In this document: piece after piece, positions 32,917 to 38,058 of the stretch
Numbering within the stretch: position 1 is the first letter of the stretch
Layout: each line of letters begins with the position of its first letter
Assembly: GCF_000799565.1 (NCBI RefSeq)
Contig: NZ_JUHB01000001.1
Location: forward strand, 620,001-684,000
Reading direction: 5' to 3'
Length of the DNA: 64,000 nt
Source: Cellulophaga sp. Hel_I_12
GTDB taxonomy: Bacteria > Bacteroidota > Bacteroidia > Flavobacteriales > Flavobacteriaceae
The notes under the pieces: generated by a model
What the model saw: only the letters and a program-made list of their open reading frames with translations
Databases searched by the model: none
Told to the model about the DNA's origin: nothing
Position numbers and translations under genes: made by a program

Positions 32917-35709
32917 TTATTCCTGTAGTAGTTCTAAGCCTTGGTTTATTCCTTTTTCGGCGGCTGGAACCCCTCTATCCATCCAAACAGGCATTGCTGT
33001 ACCTTTTAAATAATAATCAAAAAACTGCGCCATTCGGATATTAAAATCTTTTCTATTTTGCAATTTTAAGGGCCAATGTGGCTCTCCGTTGTAGTTTAAA
33101 AACCAAGATGGTTTTCCTAATCGACGTAAATTCACAAAAAATTCAATACCCTGATACCAAGGTACATGACCGTCTGCATCATTATGCATGATTAACAATG
33201 GCGTATTTATTTTATCCATAGTAAAAATAGGAGAATTCTCTACATATCGTTGTGGATATTCCCATGGGGTACCTCCTATTCTACTTTGGGTATGTTCGTA
33301 TTGAAACTGCCTACTTAAACCTGTCCACCATCGAATTCCGCCATAAGCACTAATCATATTAGGTACGGGAGCACCTGCTTCAGCTGCTTTAAAAATATCG
33401 GTCTTAGTGACTAAGTATGCAATTTGGTAACCACCCCAACTATGACCTTGAACACCAATATTGTCTTTATCGATAAAGCCTTTTTCTATTAAAGAAGTTA
33501 CTCCCGGAATAACACAATTAAACGCACTTTCTCCTGGATAACCTTCTCTATATTGAATGTCGGGTACAAAAATAACATAGCCTCTACTCGTGTAAAAACT
33601 ATAATTAATTGATGATCTTCCCGCTATAGGTGTTCTGTGGGAGTTTAAGCCATCTGAACTACGCTCATAAAAATTAACAAGCATTGGATATTTTTTATTT
33701 GGATCAAAATTTTCTGGTTTTACCAGTAAACCCGTAAGTTCAATGCCATCTAAGGAAGTCCAATGTACCAACTCGATCGTTCCCCAATTGTACTCAGATT
33801 GTTGCGGATTGGCAGTACTAATTAGGCTGGTATTTTTAAAATTAGTATTGGTTACCCGTAAATCTGGAAATTCTTTAAAGGATTCTTGTGTATACAATAA
33901 TTCACTAGATAAATGTGCTTTCGTTGGATTGGAGTACCGAAAAGCGCCTGAAATTAATGGCGTTATTTTTTTAGATTTAGGATTGAAAGACACAAAACCT
34001 GCATCTTTGCTTATCTCGTCAAAAGTGCTGAACAGCCAGTCTACACTTTCATCTAAAAAACGTTCTTCTCGGTCTGTTTTCACATAGCGATATCTTGTTT
34101 TAGTAGCTCTTCCGTTGGTTAATTTAATACTTTCTGCTGTTTCTGGATTAAATTTAAAAATATCATAGCGATCATAAAGGATCAACCATTGATCATCTTT
34201 GGTAAATCCTGCGCTACCGTAAGAAGAAGGATAATCAGGTGAATCATTTAGTTCGTCAGAAAACGGTAATCCTTTCGTTAACTCCTTATACTTTTGGTTG
34301 CTCACCGAATAGCTAAACCAAAGCGTATCCATTGGATTGTAACCATATATATATTTGGCATTGGGGCTCATTGCCGCTGCCGTAAATTTGTTTAGTATTT
34401 GAGTTGTTGCACCTGTTTTGGTATCTACAATAGCAAAATCTTTAGCGCTGTTACCTGTCCATTGGCTTTCTAAATCATAGGGCTCCGAAGAAGACACCAA
34501 AGCGAATGCTGCATTGCCCTCATTTCCTAATTCGGTATTTGGAAATTTTGTTGTTCCTAACTGAACAAGCTTATTTTTATTTTTTAAATCTATTAGCGCC
34601 TTATATGACTTTATGGTGTCATTTTTGACCTCTAGCTCTTGAACGGTATAAAGTCTGGGCTCGTCATAGGTCCAAACTTCTACATTAACGATTTGATCAT
34701 CGGTTAAAAGTGTGTCCTTTATAATAGGTGGTTGTGCTAAACCAAAAAATAATTTGGACTCATCTTTAGAAAATTCAATAGCACCATAGGAAGAAACAAG
34801 ATAGTTTTTTGGAGCATTAGTTGCATTGATGATTTTTTCGGCCTTTGTATTCCCTTCTTTATAATAGAATAATTCATTAGGTCTAAGCTGTACTTTAGTG
34901 GTATCGGTATCTACAATAAAACCTAAATTTTCACCAGACTCACTTAAAGAAAGTTGGTGATATTTTGCTTTTTTTGCTTCATAAACTGTTTTGGTCTGGT
35001 TTTTATCAAGGTTCATAACGACAACCCGCGAAGGATCATCTGTATCTTCTCCTGTCGTTGTATACGCGAAATACTTTCCTTTTTTAGCAAAACTATGGCT
35101 CGTTACAAATTTAAGCGTATCCTCAACTTGAGTCATTACATTAAGTAATATGAGATGATATCCATTTTCTTTGTTTACTTTTTTCACTTTCTTAGGATCT
35201 ATAGTTTTTGCAACTTTAATCGTATCTGTTGCATTTTTGTCCTTATCTGTTTTTATATCTTCTAAATAATAGGCTAAATACCCTGACCATTTTTCGGGCA
35301 TGGTATACGATTTTACGTTTGCTATTTTTGTTAGACGTTTTGAATTTAAATCGTAAATACCTAAAGTATCTTTAGGCATTTTATCTTTTTTAGTTTTGCG
35401 CTGCTTTAAGGCTGTTATACTATCAGTCCAAGCTTTTATGGTAAAGGCTACAAATTTAGAATCGTAGCTAAAGTTTCCTTTTTCTCCCCTGGCATATTCA
35501 AAGACTGAATTTCCTTTAGAGGTTTTTAATTGTAAGGTTTGGTCCTTTTCTCCTTTTTGTAAGCCATAAACAACATATGATCCATCCGGTGAAATAGCTT
35601 CGTTTTCAATGGTATTCCAAATTTCAAGGTCAGCATGATCCAGTACTTTCTTTTGGGAATACAGACATAAACTACTCAACAGTAAGGTACTTATTAAAAG
35701 TGTTTTCAT
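32917..35709 (-). CDS. S9 family prolyl oligopeptidase-like serine peptidase, secreted
   Basis: This 930-residue protein has a signal peptide (LLISTLLLSSLCLYSQ). A long beta-propeller-like region follows (about 25-620), then an alpha/beta hydrolase domain. Catalytic residues are Ser in GVQGHSWGGYQIAY, Asp in HNDADGHVPW and His in GEPHWPLK, which is the S9 order. It likely degrades peptides in the periplasm or outside the cell. The length is above that of classical prolyl oligopeptidase and matches the large Bacteroidota S9 proteins. It is monocistronic. Confidence 0.88.
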   Translation of the reverse strand: MKTLLISTLLLSSLCLYSQKKVLDHADLEIWNTIENEAISPDGSYVVYGLQKGEKDQTLQLKTSKGNSVFEYARGEKGNFSYDSKFVAFTIKAWTDSITALKQRKTKKDKMPKDTLGIYDLNSKRLTKIANVKSYTMPEKWSGYLAYYLEDIKTDKDKNATDTIKVAKTIDPKKVKKVNKENGYHLILLNVMTQVEDTLKFVTSHSFAKKGKYFAYTTTGEDTDDPSRVVVMNLDKNQTKTVYEAKKAKYHQLSLSESGENLGFIVDTDTTKVQLRPNELFYYKEGNTKAEKIINATNAPKNYLVSSYGAIEFSKDESKLFFGLAQPPIIKDTLLTDDQIVNVEVWTYDEPRLYTVQELEVKNDTIKSYKALIDLKNKNKLVQLGTTKFPNTELGNEGNAAFALVSSSEPYDLESQWTGNSAKDFAIVDTKTGATTQILNKFTAAAMSPNAKYIYGYNPMDTLWFSYSVSNQKYKELTKGLPFSDELNDSPDYPSSYGSAGFTKDDQWLILYDRYDIFKFNPETAESIKLTNGRATKTRYRYVKTDREERFLDESVDWLFSTFDEISKDAGFVSFNPKSKKITPLISGAFRYSNPTKAHLSSELLYTQESFKEFPDLRVTNTNFKNTSLISTANPQQSEYNWGTIELVHWTSLDGIELTGLLVKPENFDPNKKYPMLVNFYERSSDGLNSHRTPIAGRSSINYSFYTSRGYVIFVPDIQYREGYPGESAFNCVIPGVTSLIEKGFIDKDNIGVQGHSWGGYQIAYLVTKTDIFKAAEAGAPVPNMISAYGGIRWWTGLSRQFQYEHTQSRIGGTPWEYPQRYVENSPIFTMDKINTPLLIMHNDADGHVPWYQGIEFFVNLRRLGKPSWFLNYNGEPHWPLKLQNRKDFNIRMAQFFDYYLKGTAMPVWMDRGVPAAEKGINQGLELLQE

Positions 35710-35784: not shown

Positions 35785-35812
35785 ATGAGATTATTTTACT
35801 TAAAAATCTCAT
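35785..35812. repeat. perfect inverted repeat upstream of the micro-gene array
   Basis: ATGAGATT (35785-35792) and AATCTCAT (35805-35812) are exact inverted repeats around 12 nt. There is no T run, so a protein-binding site or mRNA hairpin is as likely as a terminator. It lies 136 bp upstream of the first micro-gene. Confidence 0.5.
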
Positions 35813-35947
35813 AATCAATTAATTAAAACTTAAAGAGTCCAATAATTTATTTTAATAACTATAAAATAGTACCTTTTATTACATAGTACTGTAACAAAAT
35901 ACAAACTACGTCGTCTTATATATGTAAATCAATCTAAAACAAACATC

Positions 35948-36034
35948 ATGAAATCATTAAACAAACATCAAGTACAACAAACATTAGAAACATCAACAAG
36001 CAGAATCTGGAACCTGAAAAGAAGGTATCGATAA
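35948..36034 (+). CDS. micro-gene 1 of tandem array, 28-residue basic peptide
   Basis: ATG at 35948 opens 28 codons ending TAA at 36032-36034. The peptide starts MKSLNKHQVQQ, continues TLETSTS and ends SRIWNLKRRYR. It is strongly basic with one acidic residue, and has no Cys and no signal peptide. The leader CAATCTAAAACAAACATC directly before the ATG is repeated before the next two copies. It is one of three tandem homologous frames with conserved length. I recognise no family. A nucleic-acid-binding, membrane-active or signalling peptide are all possible. Confidence 0.7.
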   Translation: MKSLNKHQVQQTLETSTSRIWNLKRRYR

Positions 36035-36078
36035 AACTAAGAATCTATTAAGAGTTACATCAATCTAAAACAAACATC

Positions 36079-36165
36079 ATGAAATTAGGAAACAAACATC
36101 AAGTACATCAAACATTAGAAACATCAACAAGTAGAATCTGGAATGCCAAAAGAAGGTATAGATAA
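36079..36165 (+). CDS. micro-gene 2 of tandem array, 28-residue basic peptide
   Basis: This is a second copy, 131 bp after the first, again 28 codons. The peptide starts MKLGNKHQVHQ and ends SRIWNAKRRYR. Differences from copy 1 include synonymous ones (AGC/AGT, AAC/AAT, CGA/AGA) and replacements at residues 3, 4, 10 and 23. The spacer after copy 1 is 44 bp. The same leader CAATCTAAAACAAACATC precedes the ATG. Function is unknown. Confidence 0.7.
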   Translation: MKLGNKHQVHQTLETSTSRIWNAKRRYR

Positions 36166-36207
36166 ACTATAAAAAATGAAGACTTACATCAATCTAAAAC
36201 AAACATC

Positions 36208-36294
36208 ATGAAATTAGTAAACAAACATCAAATACAACAGACTTTAGAAACATCATCAAGCAGAATCTGGAACCTGAAAAGAAGGTATCGTTAA
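36208..36294 (+). CDS. micro-gene 3 of tandem array, 28-residue basic peptide
   Basis: This is a third copy, 129 bp after the second, with 28 codons. The peptide starts MKLVNKHQIQQ and ends SRIWNLKRRYR. Relative to copy 1, silent changes occur at Gln11 (CAA/CAG), Thr12 (ACA/ACT) and Arg28 (CGA/CGT), and conservative ones at Val9 to Ile and Thr17 to Ser. This pattern is what selection on a protein would leave. The same leader is present. Confidence 0.7.
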   Translation: MKLVNKHQIQQTLETSSSRIWNLKRRYR

Positions 36295-36318: not shown

Positions 36319-36444
36319 ATGAAAATTTTAATCCATCCACAAAAAATAATATCCAAGCGAAACCGCAGATGCATAGAAATCATTAACTCCAGAAGAATTC
36401 ACTTTTTAAAGTTTACATATGACCATCAGTATCCAATCTATTAA
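36319..36444 (+). CDS. micro-gene 4, 41-residue basic peptide at the end of the array
   Basis: ATG at 36319 opens 41 codons ending TAA at 36442-36444, only 24 bp after copy 3. The peptide begins MKILIHPQKIISKRNRRC and ends HQYPIY. It is basic, with one Cys and several Arg/Lys pairs. It is not similar to the three 28-residue peptides but shares position, direction, an A/C-rich leader (AAAACAACAATC) and the terminator. It could be a chance frame; the terminator directly behind it argues that the transcript reaches this far. Confidence 0.45.
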   Translation: MKILIHPQKIISKRNRRCIEIINSRRIHFLKFTYDHQYPIY

Positions 36445-36451
36445 GTACATC

Positions 36452-36489
36452 AAAAAAGCAGTAGCTTTATCAACTACTGCTTTTTTTTT
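36452..36489 (+). terminator. strong terminator of the micro-gene array
   Basis: GCAGTAG (36458-36464) pairs with CTACTGC (36474-36480), extended by A6 on the left and T9 on the right. It can also stop the convergent helicase transcript. Confidence 0.9.
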
Positions 36490-36504: not shown

Positions 36505-38058
36505 TTATTCCTCTGGTGGGTATCCATGAATTTCTTCAAAAACTTCGTCAAAATTTTGACGCAGATATGCGTTTAGTTTTAACTTATAATCATCCTTTAA
36601 CCATTTTAAAAAATTAAAGGTACTTCTGCTGATACACTTTGCGTAGCTTGCGATACGGTTATCGATATCAACATCTAAAATTTTAGCTAAAGCTAGTGCG
36701 TCATAGACATCTTCACTATTTTCAATACAGATTTTAGCGTGCTGTTCTATAGAACGCTCTAAGACCACCTTGGAAGATTCTCCTTTAAACGTTGCCTCAG
36801 TATATACTTCTTTAATATCAAAATAAACCTCTTCTGATTTTGCAAATTGAACTCGTATTTCTTCTGGCATTTCATGCCTAAATTCACTTTCTATATCTTC
36901 ATCATTTTGAAGTCTGTCGATATAAAAGTTAGGTGATTTAAAAATCATCTGCCAATCTAAATCTGCACCCCAAGGCCCAAATCGATGGTAGTTGTTTCCT
37001 AAATCAATCACTTGAAAGCTAGATTTATTATTGAGAATACGCGAGCCCCTACCGATCATTTGATAATATAAGGTCAATGATTTTGTTGCTCTGTTTAATA
37101 TGATGGTATCTATGGTTGGTTCATCAAAACCTGTCGTTAAAATACTCACCGAAGTTAAAATAGCGTCCGGTGTTTCTTTAAACCACTTTAAAATTTGTTT
37201 TCGTTGTTTTTTAGTGGCTGTATTGTCTAAATGCATTACAGGAAGGCCTGCTGCTTTAAACGTATAAAATATTTGGATTGAGGTGTTGATCCCGTTATTA
37301 AAAATCAATGCTTTTTTACCCTTAGAATGTTTTAAATACGCTTGCAGCGTTTTATCTAACATTGCTGGGCTTGTATATAAATCTTCGGATGATTTTACCG
37401 TATAATCTCCGTTAGAACCTACCTCTAAAGAGGTTAAACCCATATCATACTGAAAAACTTCAGCACGGGCTAAAAATTCATTTTCAATTAATGCGCCGAT
37501 CGACTCCCCAGAAATTAATTCATCATAATTATCTTTCATAGGGAGTTCCTTACTAGAACTCAAAGGCGTAGCGGTTACACCAAGAATAAAAGAATTTTCA
37601 AAAAATTTGAACAATTTTGTAAAGGAATTATAATGCGCTTCATCAATAATCACTAAACCGATATCTGAGATATCTAATTTATCATCATTTAAACGATTAT
37701 TAAGCGTTTCGACCATGGCTACAAAGCAAATATACTGGTCTTGATCGTCTAAATTTGCTTTACTATTCACTACTTTATTGGGCACACCAAAACTAGTTAA
37801 CATACCAGAAGTCTGATTACACAGCTCCACACGGTGTGTCATCACCAATACCTTTTTATTATGATTTTTAAGGTATTGACGAACCATCTCAGAGAAAATT
37901 ACGGTTTTTCCTCCTCCTGTGGGTAATTGGTATAGTAAATGGTAATTATCCGCTTCAGTATCGAACTTCTCAAAAATCTTTTGAATAGCTCCTTGCTGGT
38001 AACTATAAAGTTCTTTATCTGTTTTTCTGTCTTGCAATCCTATTGCTGTCTCCGTCAT
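36505..38058 (-). CDS. superfamily 2 helicase, RadD/SSL2-like
   Basis: This 517-residue ATPase has motif I LPTGGGKTVIFSEM at about residues 45-58, motif Ia MTHRVEL, motif II LVIIDEAHYNS, motif III VTATPLS, motif V TTGFDEPTIDT and motif VI YYQMIGRGSR. The order matches the DEAH-like RadD/RecG-type branch of SF2 involved in DNA repair or RNA work. The C-terminal 130 residues lack a recognised domain. A near-perfect -7 box (TAATTTTG, minus strand, 38091-38098) lies upstream. Confidence 0.82.
   Translation of the reverse strand: MTETAIGLQDRKTDKELYSYQQGAIQKIFEKFDTEADNYHLLYQLPTGGGKTVIFSEMVRQYLKNHNKKVLVMTHRVELCNQTSGMLTSFGVPNKVVNSKANLDDQDQYICFVAMVETLNNRLNDDKLDISDIGLVIIDEAHYNSFTKLFKFFENSFILGVTATPLSSSKELPMKDNYDELISGESIGALIENEFLARAEVFQYDMGLTSLEVGSNGDYTVKSSEDLYTSPAMLDKTLQAYLKHSKGKKALIFNNGINTSIQIFYTFKAAGLPVMHLDNTATKKQRKQILKWFKETPDAILTSVSILTTGFDEPTIDTIILNRATKSLTLYYQMIGRGSRILNNKSSFQVIDLGNNYHRFGPWGADLDWQMIFKSPNFYIDRLQNDEDIESEFRHEMPEEIRVQFAKSEEVYFDIKEVYTEATFKGESSKVVLERSIEQHAKICIENSEDVYDALALAKILDVDIDNRIASYAKCISRSTFNFLKWLKDDYKLKLNAYLRQNFDEVFEEIHGYPPEE

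Follow-up and report, generated by a model that had tools for sequence, protein, structure and literature searches.

Why should a bacterial genome carry three near-identical genes of only 28 codons side by side, and what could their products do? The locus that raises this question lies in a 64,000-nucleotide stretch of the genome of Cellulophaga sp. Hel_I_12 (contig NZ_JUHB01000001.1, positions 620,001 to 684,000), which is called the window here. A preliminary description, made from the sequence alone, had reported three tandem 28-codon open reading frames (ORFs) without indels between the copies, a common 18-nt leader, spacers of 44 and 42 bp between the ORFs and a strong terminator after the array. 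All of these were confirmed: the leader, CAATCTAAAACAAACATC, is found before each of the three ORFs, and the terminator is a perfect 13-bp stem (36452-36464 / 36474-36486) followed by a T run, which an automated scan for loops of 3-8 nt did not list, its loop being 9. The array repeat comprises a reference copy of 127 nt and two further copies that share 83% and 87% identity with it, and this three-copy repetition is far beyond chance. The array unit also includes an ORF of 41 aa (gene B in Table 1) and a promoter region, neither of which had been recognized. The unit is flanked on the opposite strand by genes for proteins of 930 aa (32917-35709) and 517 aa (36505-38058), which we take to be peptidase-like and helicase-like, respectively, and the terminator may also serve the convergent helicase-like gene. 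The locus appears to be an operon of four micropeptide genes, and further micropeptide arrays in the Flavobacteriaceae form a set with it.

Table 1. Features of the micropeptide array in the window
Feature	Position	Strand	Basis
Micropeptide gene A1, 28 aa, MKSLNKHQVQQTLETSTSRIWNLKRRYR	35948..36034	+	ORF calls, family search, dN/dS
Micropeptide gene A2, 28 aa, MKLGNKHQVHQTLETSTSRIWNAKRRYR	36079..36165	+	ORF calls, dN/dS
Micropeptide gene A3, 28 aa, MKLVNKHQIQQTLETSSSRIWNLKRRYR	36208..36294	+	ORF calls, dN/dS
Micropeptide gene B, 41 aa; probably belongs, as a divergent peptide, to the 37-aa class	36319..36444	+	Gapless alignment, weak
Palindromic box TACCTTTTATTACATAGTAC, putative PadR operator	35870..35889	+	TACYWTKYWWTRCATAGTAC matched, 0 mismatches
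ECF-type promoter core TGTAAC...CGTCTT (GTAAC-N16-CGTC)	35890..35917	+	0 mismatches
Intrinsic terminator, 13-bp stem and T run	36452..36489	+	Perfect stem; G017, a genome of the same genus, has a similar one at the equivalent position

In the genus itself the 28-aa peptide is found in 2 of 18 genomes (G000 and G017), and its absence from the other 16 implies that it is dispensable to cells. Four tandem copies adjoin the same helicase-like gene in G017, three of 28 aa and the fourth of 27 aa. In G005 there is a weak match (E 1.27), and in G013 the helicase-like protein is 98% identical and the peptidase-like neighbour is shared, with no array at that place. Across the family, matches were obtained in 117 of 397 genomes at E <= 0.5, a threshold at which some may be chance matches, and many of them are full-length and tandem; G124 and G322 encode 28-aa copies yet lie outside the 117. 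Named genomes were scanned at the DNA level for sequences encoding the final eight residues plus the stop codon, which yielded at least 80 loci. Among the 80 listed, 70 truly encode WNxKRRYR, and 58 hold exact 28-codon ORFs, 95 altogether; these 58 were used. Of the others, 12 had no 28-aa ORF and were excluded, as were 10 whose match depended solely on serine codons that the pattern also accepted. By their titles the 58 loci are nearly all from Flavobacteriaceae, and the genera among those listed include Aquimarina, Winogradskyella, Algibacter, Psychroserpens, Hyunsoonleella, Flavivirga and Arenibacter. Copy arrays in other genera, which had been named beforehand as support for a peptide, exist among the loci listed, with the 28-codon length fixed. 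An alignment of 44 of the 89 distinct peptides from these named loci, together with the three copies in the window, gives the consensus MRTLNxNQxTxxLxxTKSxxWNxKRRYR; all three ORFs of the window have 28 codons and end in WNxKRRYR or a close variant.

The preliminary claim that selection preserves a peptide is upheld by the 95 exact 28-codon ORFs at the 58 listed loci and by the dN/dS analysis proposed at the time, in which the ratios (0.11-0.28) are low in the coding frame and the signal is absent in shifted frames (pN/pS 1.59 and 0.86). The ratio is 0.27-0.28 among the copies in the window (0.28 for codons 2-28) and 0.11-0.12 between these and G017 (0.12 for codons 2-28). Because the search pattern had selected the last eight residues, codons 2-20 were tested separately, giving 0.25 within the named arrays among the loci listed. 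The pairs compared are mutually dependent, and the ratios are given with no p-value attached. Most of the differences between copies of one array affect the third codon position (135/114/318 at the three positions). The exact length of 28 codons recurs among the loci listed although the search sought just the last eight residues and the stop, and the length changes observed are of whole codons (27 aa in copy 4 of G017 and 35 aa in L255). A second class of 36-37 aa, described below, has a dN/dS of 0.29 within arrays. These substitution patterns indicate that the array ORFs are under selection as proteins.

The regions upstream of 29 arrays in other genera share a strongly conserved block, with a core recognizable by eye in 26 of them. 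The core, GTAAC-N16-CGT, precedes 54 of the 58 named arrays among the loci listed, and the spacer is 16 in all 54 though 15-19 was permitted. The four arrays without it lie at the edge of the locus (L144) or behind another copy (L115, L127 and L165); the core is also absent from the 518-700 nt upstream of six of the 12 excluded loci without a 28-aa ORF, which have other ORF lengths (L118, L132, L141, L149, L150 and L153). The consensus of 51 named array promoters among the loci listed is tGTTAAAAttTGTTAAattA.TACTtTGTtATaCATAGTACTGTAACA-N15-CGTCTA, and in its best dyad, picked from many windows tried, 71% of the positions pair, where composition would predict 33%. In the window, the GTAAC-N16-CGTC core stands behind the palindromic box (35870-35917) with 0 mismatches. 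The direct repeat GTTAAAANNNGTTAA, which is part of the consensus of the 51 promoters, has no counterpart there, GTTAA being absent from 35790-35870. One promoter type precedes the great majority of the arrays examined.

The pattern ATAGTACTGTAACA-N15-CGTCT, with at most 2 mismatches, matches 195 of the 397 family genomes, whereas its reversed form matches 10. In a control with the spacer one base short and at most 3 mismatches, 3 of 18 genomes matched, and 5 did so when this shortened pattern was reversed. In a draw of 395 genomes from the phylum, the promoter was found in 8 of 41 genomes of the family and 9 of 354 others (reversed control: 2 and 11, respectively); among the nine matches outside the family, G612 has 1 mismatch and the rest have 2. 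The 23 genomes of genus g128 in this draw gave no match at <= 1 mismatch and one, G711, at 2. Within the genomes sampled, the promoter is confined to the family.

What follows the promoter in genomes without the 28-aa peptide? A set of 39 sites in 38 loci, drawn mostly from genomes without a 28-aa match, contained 36 sites that precede micropeptide ORFs, 27 of them by count with at least two copies of one class; the exceptions are L281, which is cut off, and both L259 sites of G099, which stand before a 188-aa protein (the second was read in L253). An overlapping set of automatically fetched loci with <= 1 mismatch gave 28 of 30, the remaining two being those of G099. The micropeptides are 24-44 aa long and comprise, besides the 28-aa class, one class of 36-37 aa and one of 33 aa, four-copy repeats of 24 aa and of 29 aa, and a first ORF with an FGW motif. 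The 36-37 aa class, aligned from 17 of 54 distinct ORFs and two companions, has the consensus MKxxxxxTPTESRRxxxFSNFKNSKRVRWxExRNYxx. Gene B of the window aligns with it without gaps, retaining S24 and R26 and having F in place of the core W, at 14% identity to the first row of the alignment, which is weak evidence where this copy is taken by itself; it also aligns without gaps with an ORF at the equivalent position in G017. Of the 52 named arrays among the loci listed whose sequence extends far enough, 33 have an ORF of 43-45 aa behind the final 28-aa copy. The structure predicted for this 44-aa companion is one helix (residues 2-34; mean pLDDT 78.7, pTM 0.42) with an unstructured C-terminus. 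Common ancestry of the 28-, 37- and 44-aa classes was considered and rejected: their profiles align at the W motif with a probability of 1-2% and E values of 0.045 and 0.022. This similarity is insignificant, and the promoter is therefore the sole firm tie between the three classes.

Many 37-aa arrays (among them L243, L267, L274, L276, L279, L288, L289 and L309) open with a distinct FGW, mostly GFGW, peptide of 28-43 aa. G099 (L253 / L259) has two perfect array promoters before 188-aa, secreted-looking proteins with repeated acidic blocks, the one tested having no Pfam match. In L235 a secreted-looking protein of 113 aa, also without a Pfam match, follows two micropeptide copies, 266 nt past the promoter site. 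Recurrent array neighbours of at least 100 aa were grouped into clusters as a check for a RiPP maturase gene.

The palindromic box links the array to a second locus. With <= 1 mismatch it occurs in all 54 promoter-positive genomes, the reversed control in 7, and it often recurs once elsewhere in the same genome. Of the second sites listed, 20 were fetched, from this genome and 19 others, and all 20 stand upstream of a PadR-like gene that has a PspC-like gene close by on the fetched sequence; in 19 of them a DUF4870-like gene lies in between. Third sites are listed for G017, G337 and G269. The PadR and PspC identities are confirmed by Pfam for the proteins of this genome, and the names used beyond the Pfam-scanned proteins are those that we presume. 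The PspC protein here has PspC, LiaI-LiaF-TM and Toast-rack domains, with a HAAS match under the cut-off. The padR operon has a different -10 region, TATATTTG in the boxes listed. The array promoter carries a palindrome that is also found before a PadR-PspC envelope-stress operon. The half-sites of the box resemble, in the excerpts that print them, the lmrR site TACATAGTA...TACTTTGTT and a site of a Clostridium difficile PadR protein, TACTATGTA...ATAGTA. The canonical PadR spacing, ATGT-N8-ACAT in the relevant passage of PMC5428041, is found in none of the 27 boxes before padR, nor in the box of the window; the link of PadR to the box rests on position. PspA/LiaH was also considered: no PF04012 match was found in the peptides or in this genome, and 364 of the 397 family genomes have no PspA above the cut-off. 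The idea that the array stands in for PspA was rejected, since the promoter (<= 2 mismatches) occurs in 12 of 33 PspA-positive genomes and 183 of 364 others (p = 0.15), and PspA coexists with it (0-1 mismatches) in G119, G212, G293 and G379.

The core itself resembles the promoter of an ECF sigma factor gene. In 30 of 30 chosen genomes there is one match at E <= 1e-40 to such a gene, of 169-170 aa, and GTAAC-N16-CGTC lies upstream of it in 29, with a spacing of 16 in all 29; the array core was compared with this one of the ECF candidates in each genome. In the genus studied here the gene is preceded by TGTAACAAA-N13-CGTCTT. Perfect matches to this sequence also stand, in at least one genome each, before an ABC transporter and before proteins of the DUF4870 and DUF456-like types; once 1 mismatch is allowed, about half of the genomes match the reversed control as well. 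The genes sharing the promoter elements look like an envelope-stress regulon.

The peptides are hydrophilic and basic, with an aromatic/basic motif at the C-terminus that resembles W-x3-[KR]-x-[YF]. The mean net charge is 5.8 in the 28-aa class (n=93, among the loci listed) and 6.1 in the 36-37 aa class (n=54), and the mean hydropathy is -1.56 and -1.15, respectively. The best 15-residue hydropathy window is below 0 in the three 28-aa copies of the window and 0.40 in the 41-aa ORF, and the helical hydrophobic moment does not exceed that of shuffled sequences in four test peptides. Thus, of the reading offered in the preliminary description, selection on a peptide has held, whereas the secreted or membrane-active amphipathic role mentioned there is not favoured, the three 28-aa copies having no hydrophobic stretch and the moments in the test peptides being no higher than those of the shuffles; the PadR/ECF-type promoter, the fourth gene and the multi-class set had not been seen.

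We regard it as probable that the arrays encode envelope-stress micropeptides, repressed by PadR and transcribed by this ECF factor, which act by dose on an anionic partner. PadR at the palindrome would hold the array silent. The PspC partner would sense envelope stress, which would release PadR and would separately free the ECF factor, and the array would be fully transcribed when PadR is relieved and the ECF factor is free, the tandem copies increasing the dose. The charge, the low hydropathy and the lack of an amphipathic-helix signal favour cytoplasmic peptides that act as stoichiometric binders of some anionic partner, which is the most likely arrangement. The inner membrane face or the PspC complex is a slightly more likely partner than RNA or ribosomes, the membrane-face version being weakened by the low hydrophobic moment.

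The charge of about +6, the hydrophilic character and the K/R-rich C-terminus with W and Y would also suit peptides that bind RNA, ribosomes or the nucleoid, slowing or protecting gene expression during envelope stress, and tandem copies would again supply dose. This is unlikely on balance but a serious contender; the searches made gave no similarity to a nucleic-acid-binding family, and the genes with common promoter elements resemble envelope genes. A different doubt concerns the repressor. A regulator other than PadR might bind the palindrome and control both the array and the padR operon, as the missing canonical PadR spacing would allow and as would the GTTAA direct repeat that accompanies the box in other genera, such repeats being of the kind bound by response regulators. 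We consider this rather improbable, given that autoregulated padR operons, and PadR-family sites with TACTATG/CATAGTA-like half-sites, are described in print. Toxins or secreted antimicrobial or signal peptides would explain cationic products, tandem genes and a stress-type promoter. Type I toxins have a hydrophobic, membrane-spanning stretch, which the 28-aa peptides of the window lack, and cationic amphipathic antimicrobial peptides have a high helical hydrophobic moment, which the four test peptides lack; with the hydropathy values given above, these properties make such roles quite improbable.

That the transcript is a regulatory RNA, in which the ORFs are incidental or merely stabilizing, would agree with a short, repeated, predicted transcript ending in a terminator, with a hairpin that overlaps the ORF end in some genera (stems >= 8 at the ORF end in 17 of 93 28-aa ORFs among the loci listed, against 3.75 expected) and with the fold of the L131 unit (z -3.20). 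It is rejected as the main reading because the ORFs show protein-level selection, and is very improbable in view also of the fixed ORF length, the absence of a stable fold in the window (z 1.15, 0.39, 1.53 and -0.66) and an Rfam search whose sole two matches up to E 1 are under the cut-off and outside the array. Leader or arrest peptides, whose pre-stop residues stall ribosomes, might be suggested by the conserved residues directly before the stop and by lengths of 28-44 aa, about what the ribosomal exit tunnel holds. The named matches, however, had been selected for those residues, several copies follow one another, and in the window and G017 a terminator comes next without a further gene, so that this reading is extremely unlikely. 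A phage origin was rejected, there being 0 exact promoter matches in viral contigs and no significant match in PHROGs.

Do the array peptides belong to a known family? The earlier statement that no family was known holds in the libraries searched (Pfam, NCBIfam, PHROGs and PDB) for the classes scanned. Pfam and NCBIfam gave no match above the cut-off for these classes, the 24-, 29- and 33-aa ones lying outside the scans; PHROGs gave nothing for the 28- and 44-aa peptides and insignificant matches (E 0.16 and 0.24) for the 37-aa one. The RnlB antitoxin for the GFGW-type ORF (E 0.014) and the SdpR repressor for the 44-aa ORF (E 0.091), both under the cut-off, and PDB 2rag for the 28-aa profile (E 1.6) were taken as chance matches. 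A protein-collection search with the 44-aa companion found 7 proteins, three of them annotated as 'hypothetical protein' and none with a Pfam domain. No description of micropeptide arrays was found in open-licence papers.

The proposed regulators have precedents. HAAS-PadR is described as a switch for PspC (Lia-like) envelope-stress systems in passages of PMC11237479, and the array palindrome also precedes the DUF4870-PadR-PspC operon of this genome; the system in those passages, however, consists of sensors and regulators, and micropeptide-array targets are not mentioned in them. In Listeria, the PadR-type repressor LstR and the ECF-type sigma C jointly govern one operon, according to the relevant part of PMC6624303, and similar joint control is what we propose for the array. 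In that case the two regulators act on the operon that encodes them and a RodA-like protein, whereas here the regulators and the array lie at three places and the targets would be micropeptides. The genes behind the SM6 CGT-box promoters of Flavobacterium psychrophilum include type IX secretion system parts, and micropeptide arrays are not mentioned in the passages concerned (PMC9723704). Tiny genes in tandem copies are likewise known for type I toxins and for other small proteins; the array peptides are strongly hydrophilic, whereas hydrophobicity is typical of type I toxins. The regulators would thus be of known kinds and the effectors not.

We tentatively suggest, with somewhat less than even confidence, that the arrays represent an undescribed class of stress effectors: tandem basic peptides of 24-44 aa, of several sequence classes under one switch, which about half of the Flavobacteriaceae genomes sampled would carry and which would form an abundant PspC-PadR output that is gated by PadR and the ECF sigma factor, with copy number setting the dose. 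If so, the small size of the genes is a plausible reason why a main output of a stress response, encoded in roughly every second genome sampled from a large bacterial family, would have escaped notice, and the PadR-PspC branch of the phage-shock response gains a directly testable candidate effector. The promoter would also be a tool for finding further such genes without protein similarity.

Minor observations concern related loci. The promoter search in members of the genus without the 28-aa peptide covered G002 and G011; in G002 (L399) a membrane protein of 52 aa, presumably YqaE/Pmp3-like, lies behind a site that differs from the longer pattern by 2 mismatches, which is in keeping with a membrane-stress regulon. 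In L131, L169, L126, L104, L133, L155, L179 and others, the stop codon lies within a hairpin of 9-13 bp, one arm of which is made up of the KRRY codons; this hairpin is not present in the window and may be a translation-sensitive terminator between copies. In five genomes of the genus (L021, L022, L023, L025 and L026, in G005, G006, G012, G004 and G007, respectively), tandem units of ~200 nt adjoin the same helicase-like gene, in 2, 2, 3, 3 and 2 copies; each unit ends in a strong terminator-like hairpin, AAAAGAGTCTTG..CAAGACTCTTTTT, and they may be small RNAs in tandem, occupying the position of the peptide array in the window.
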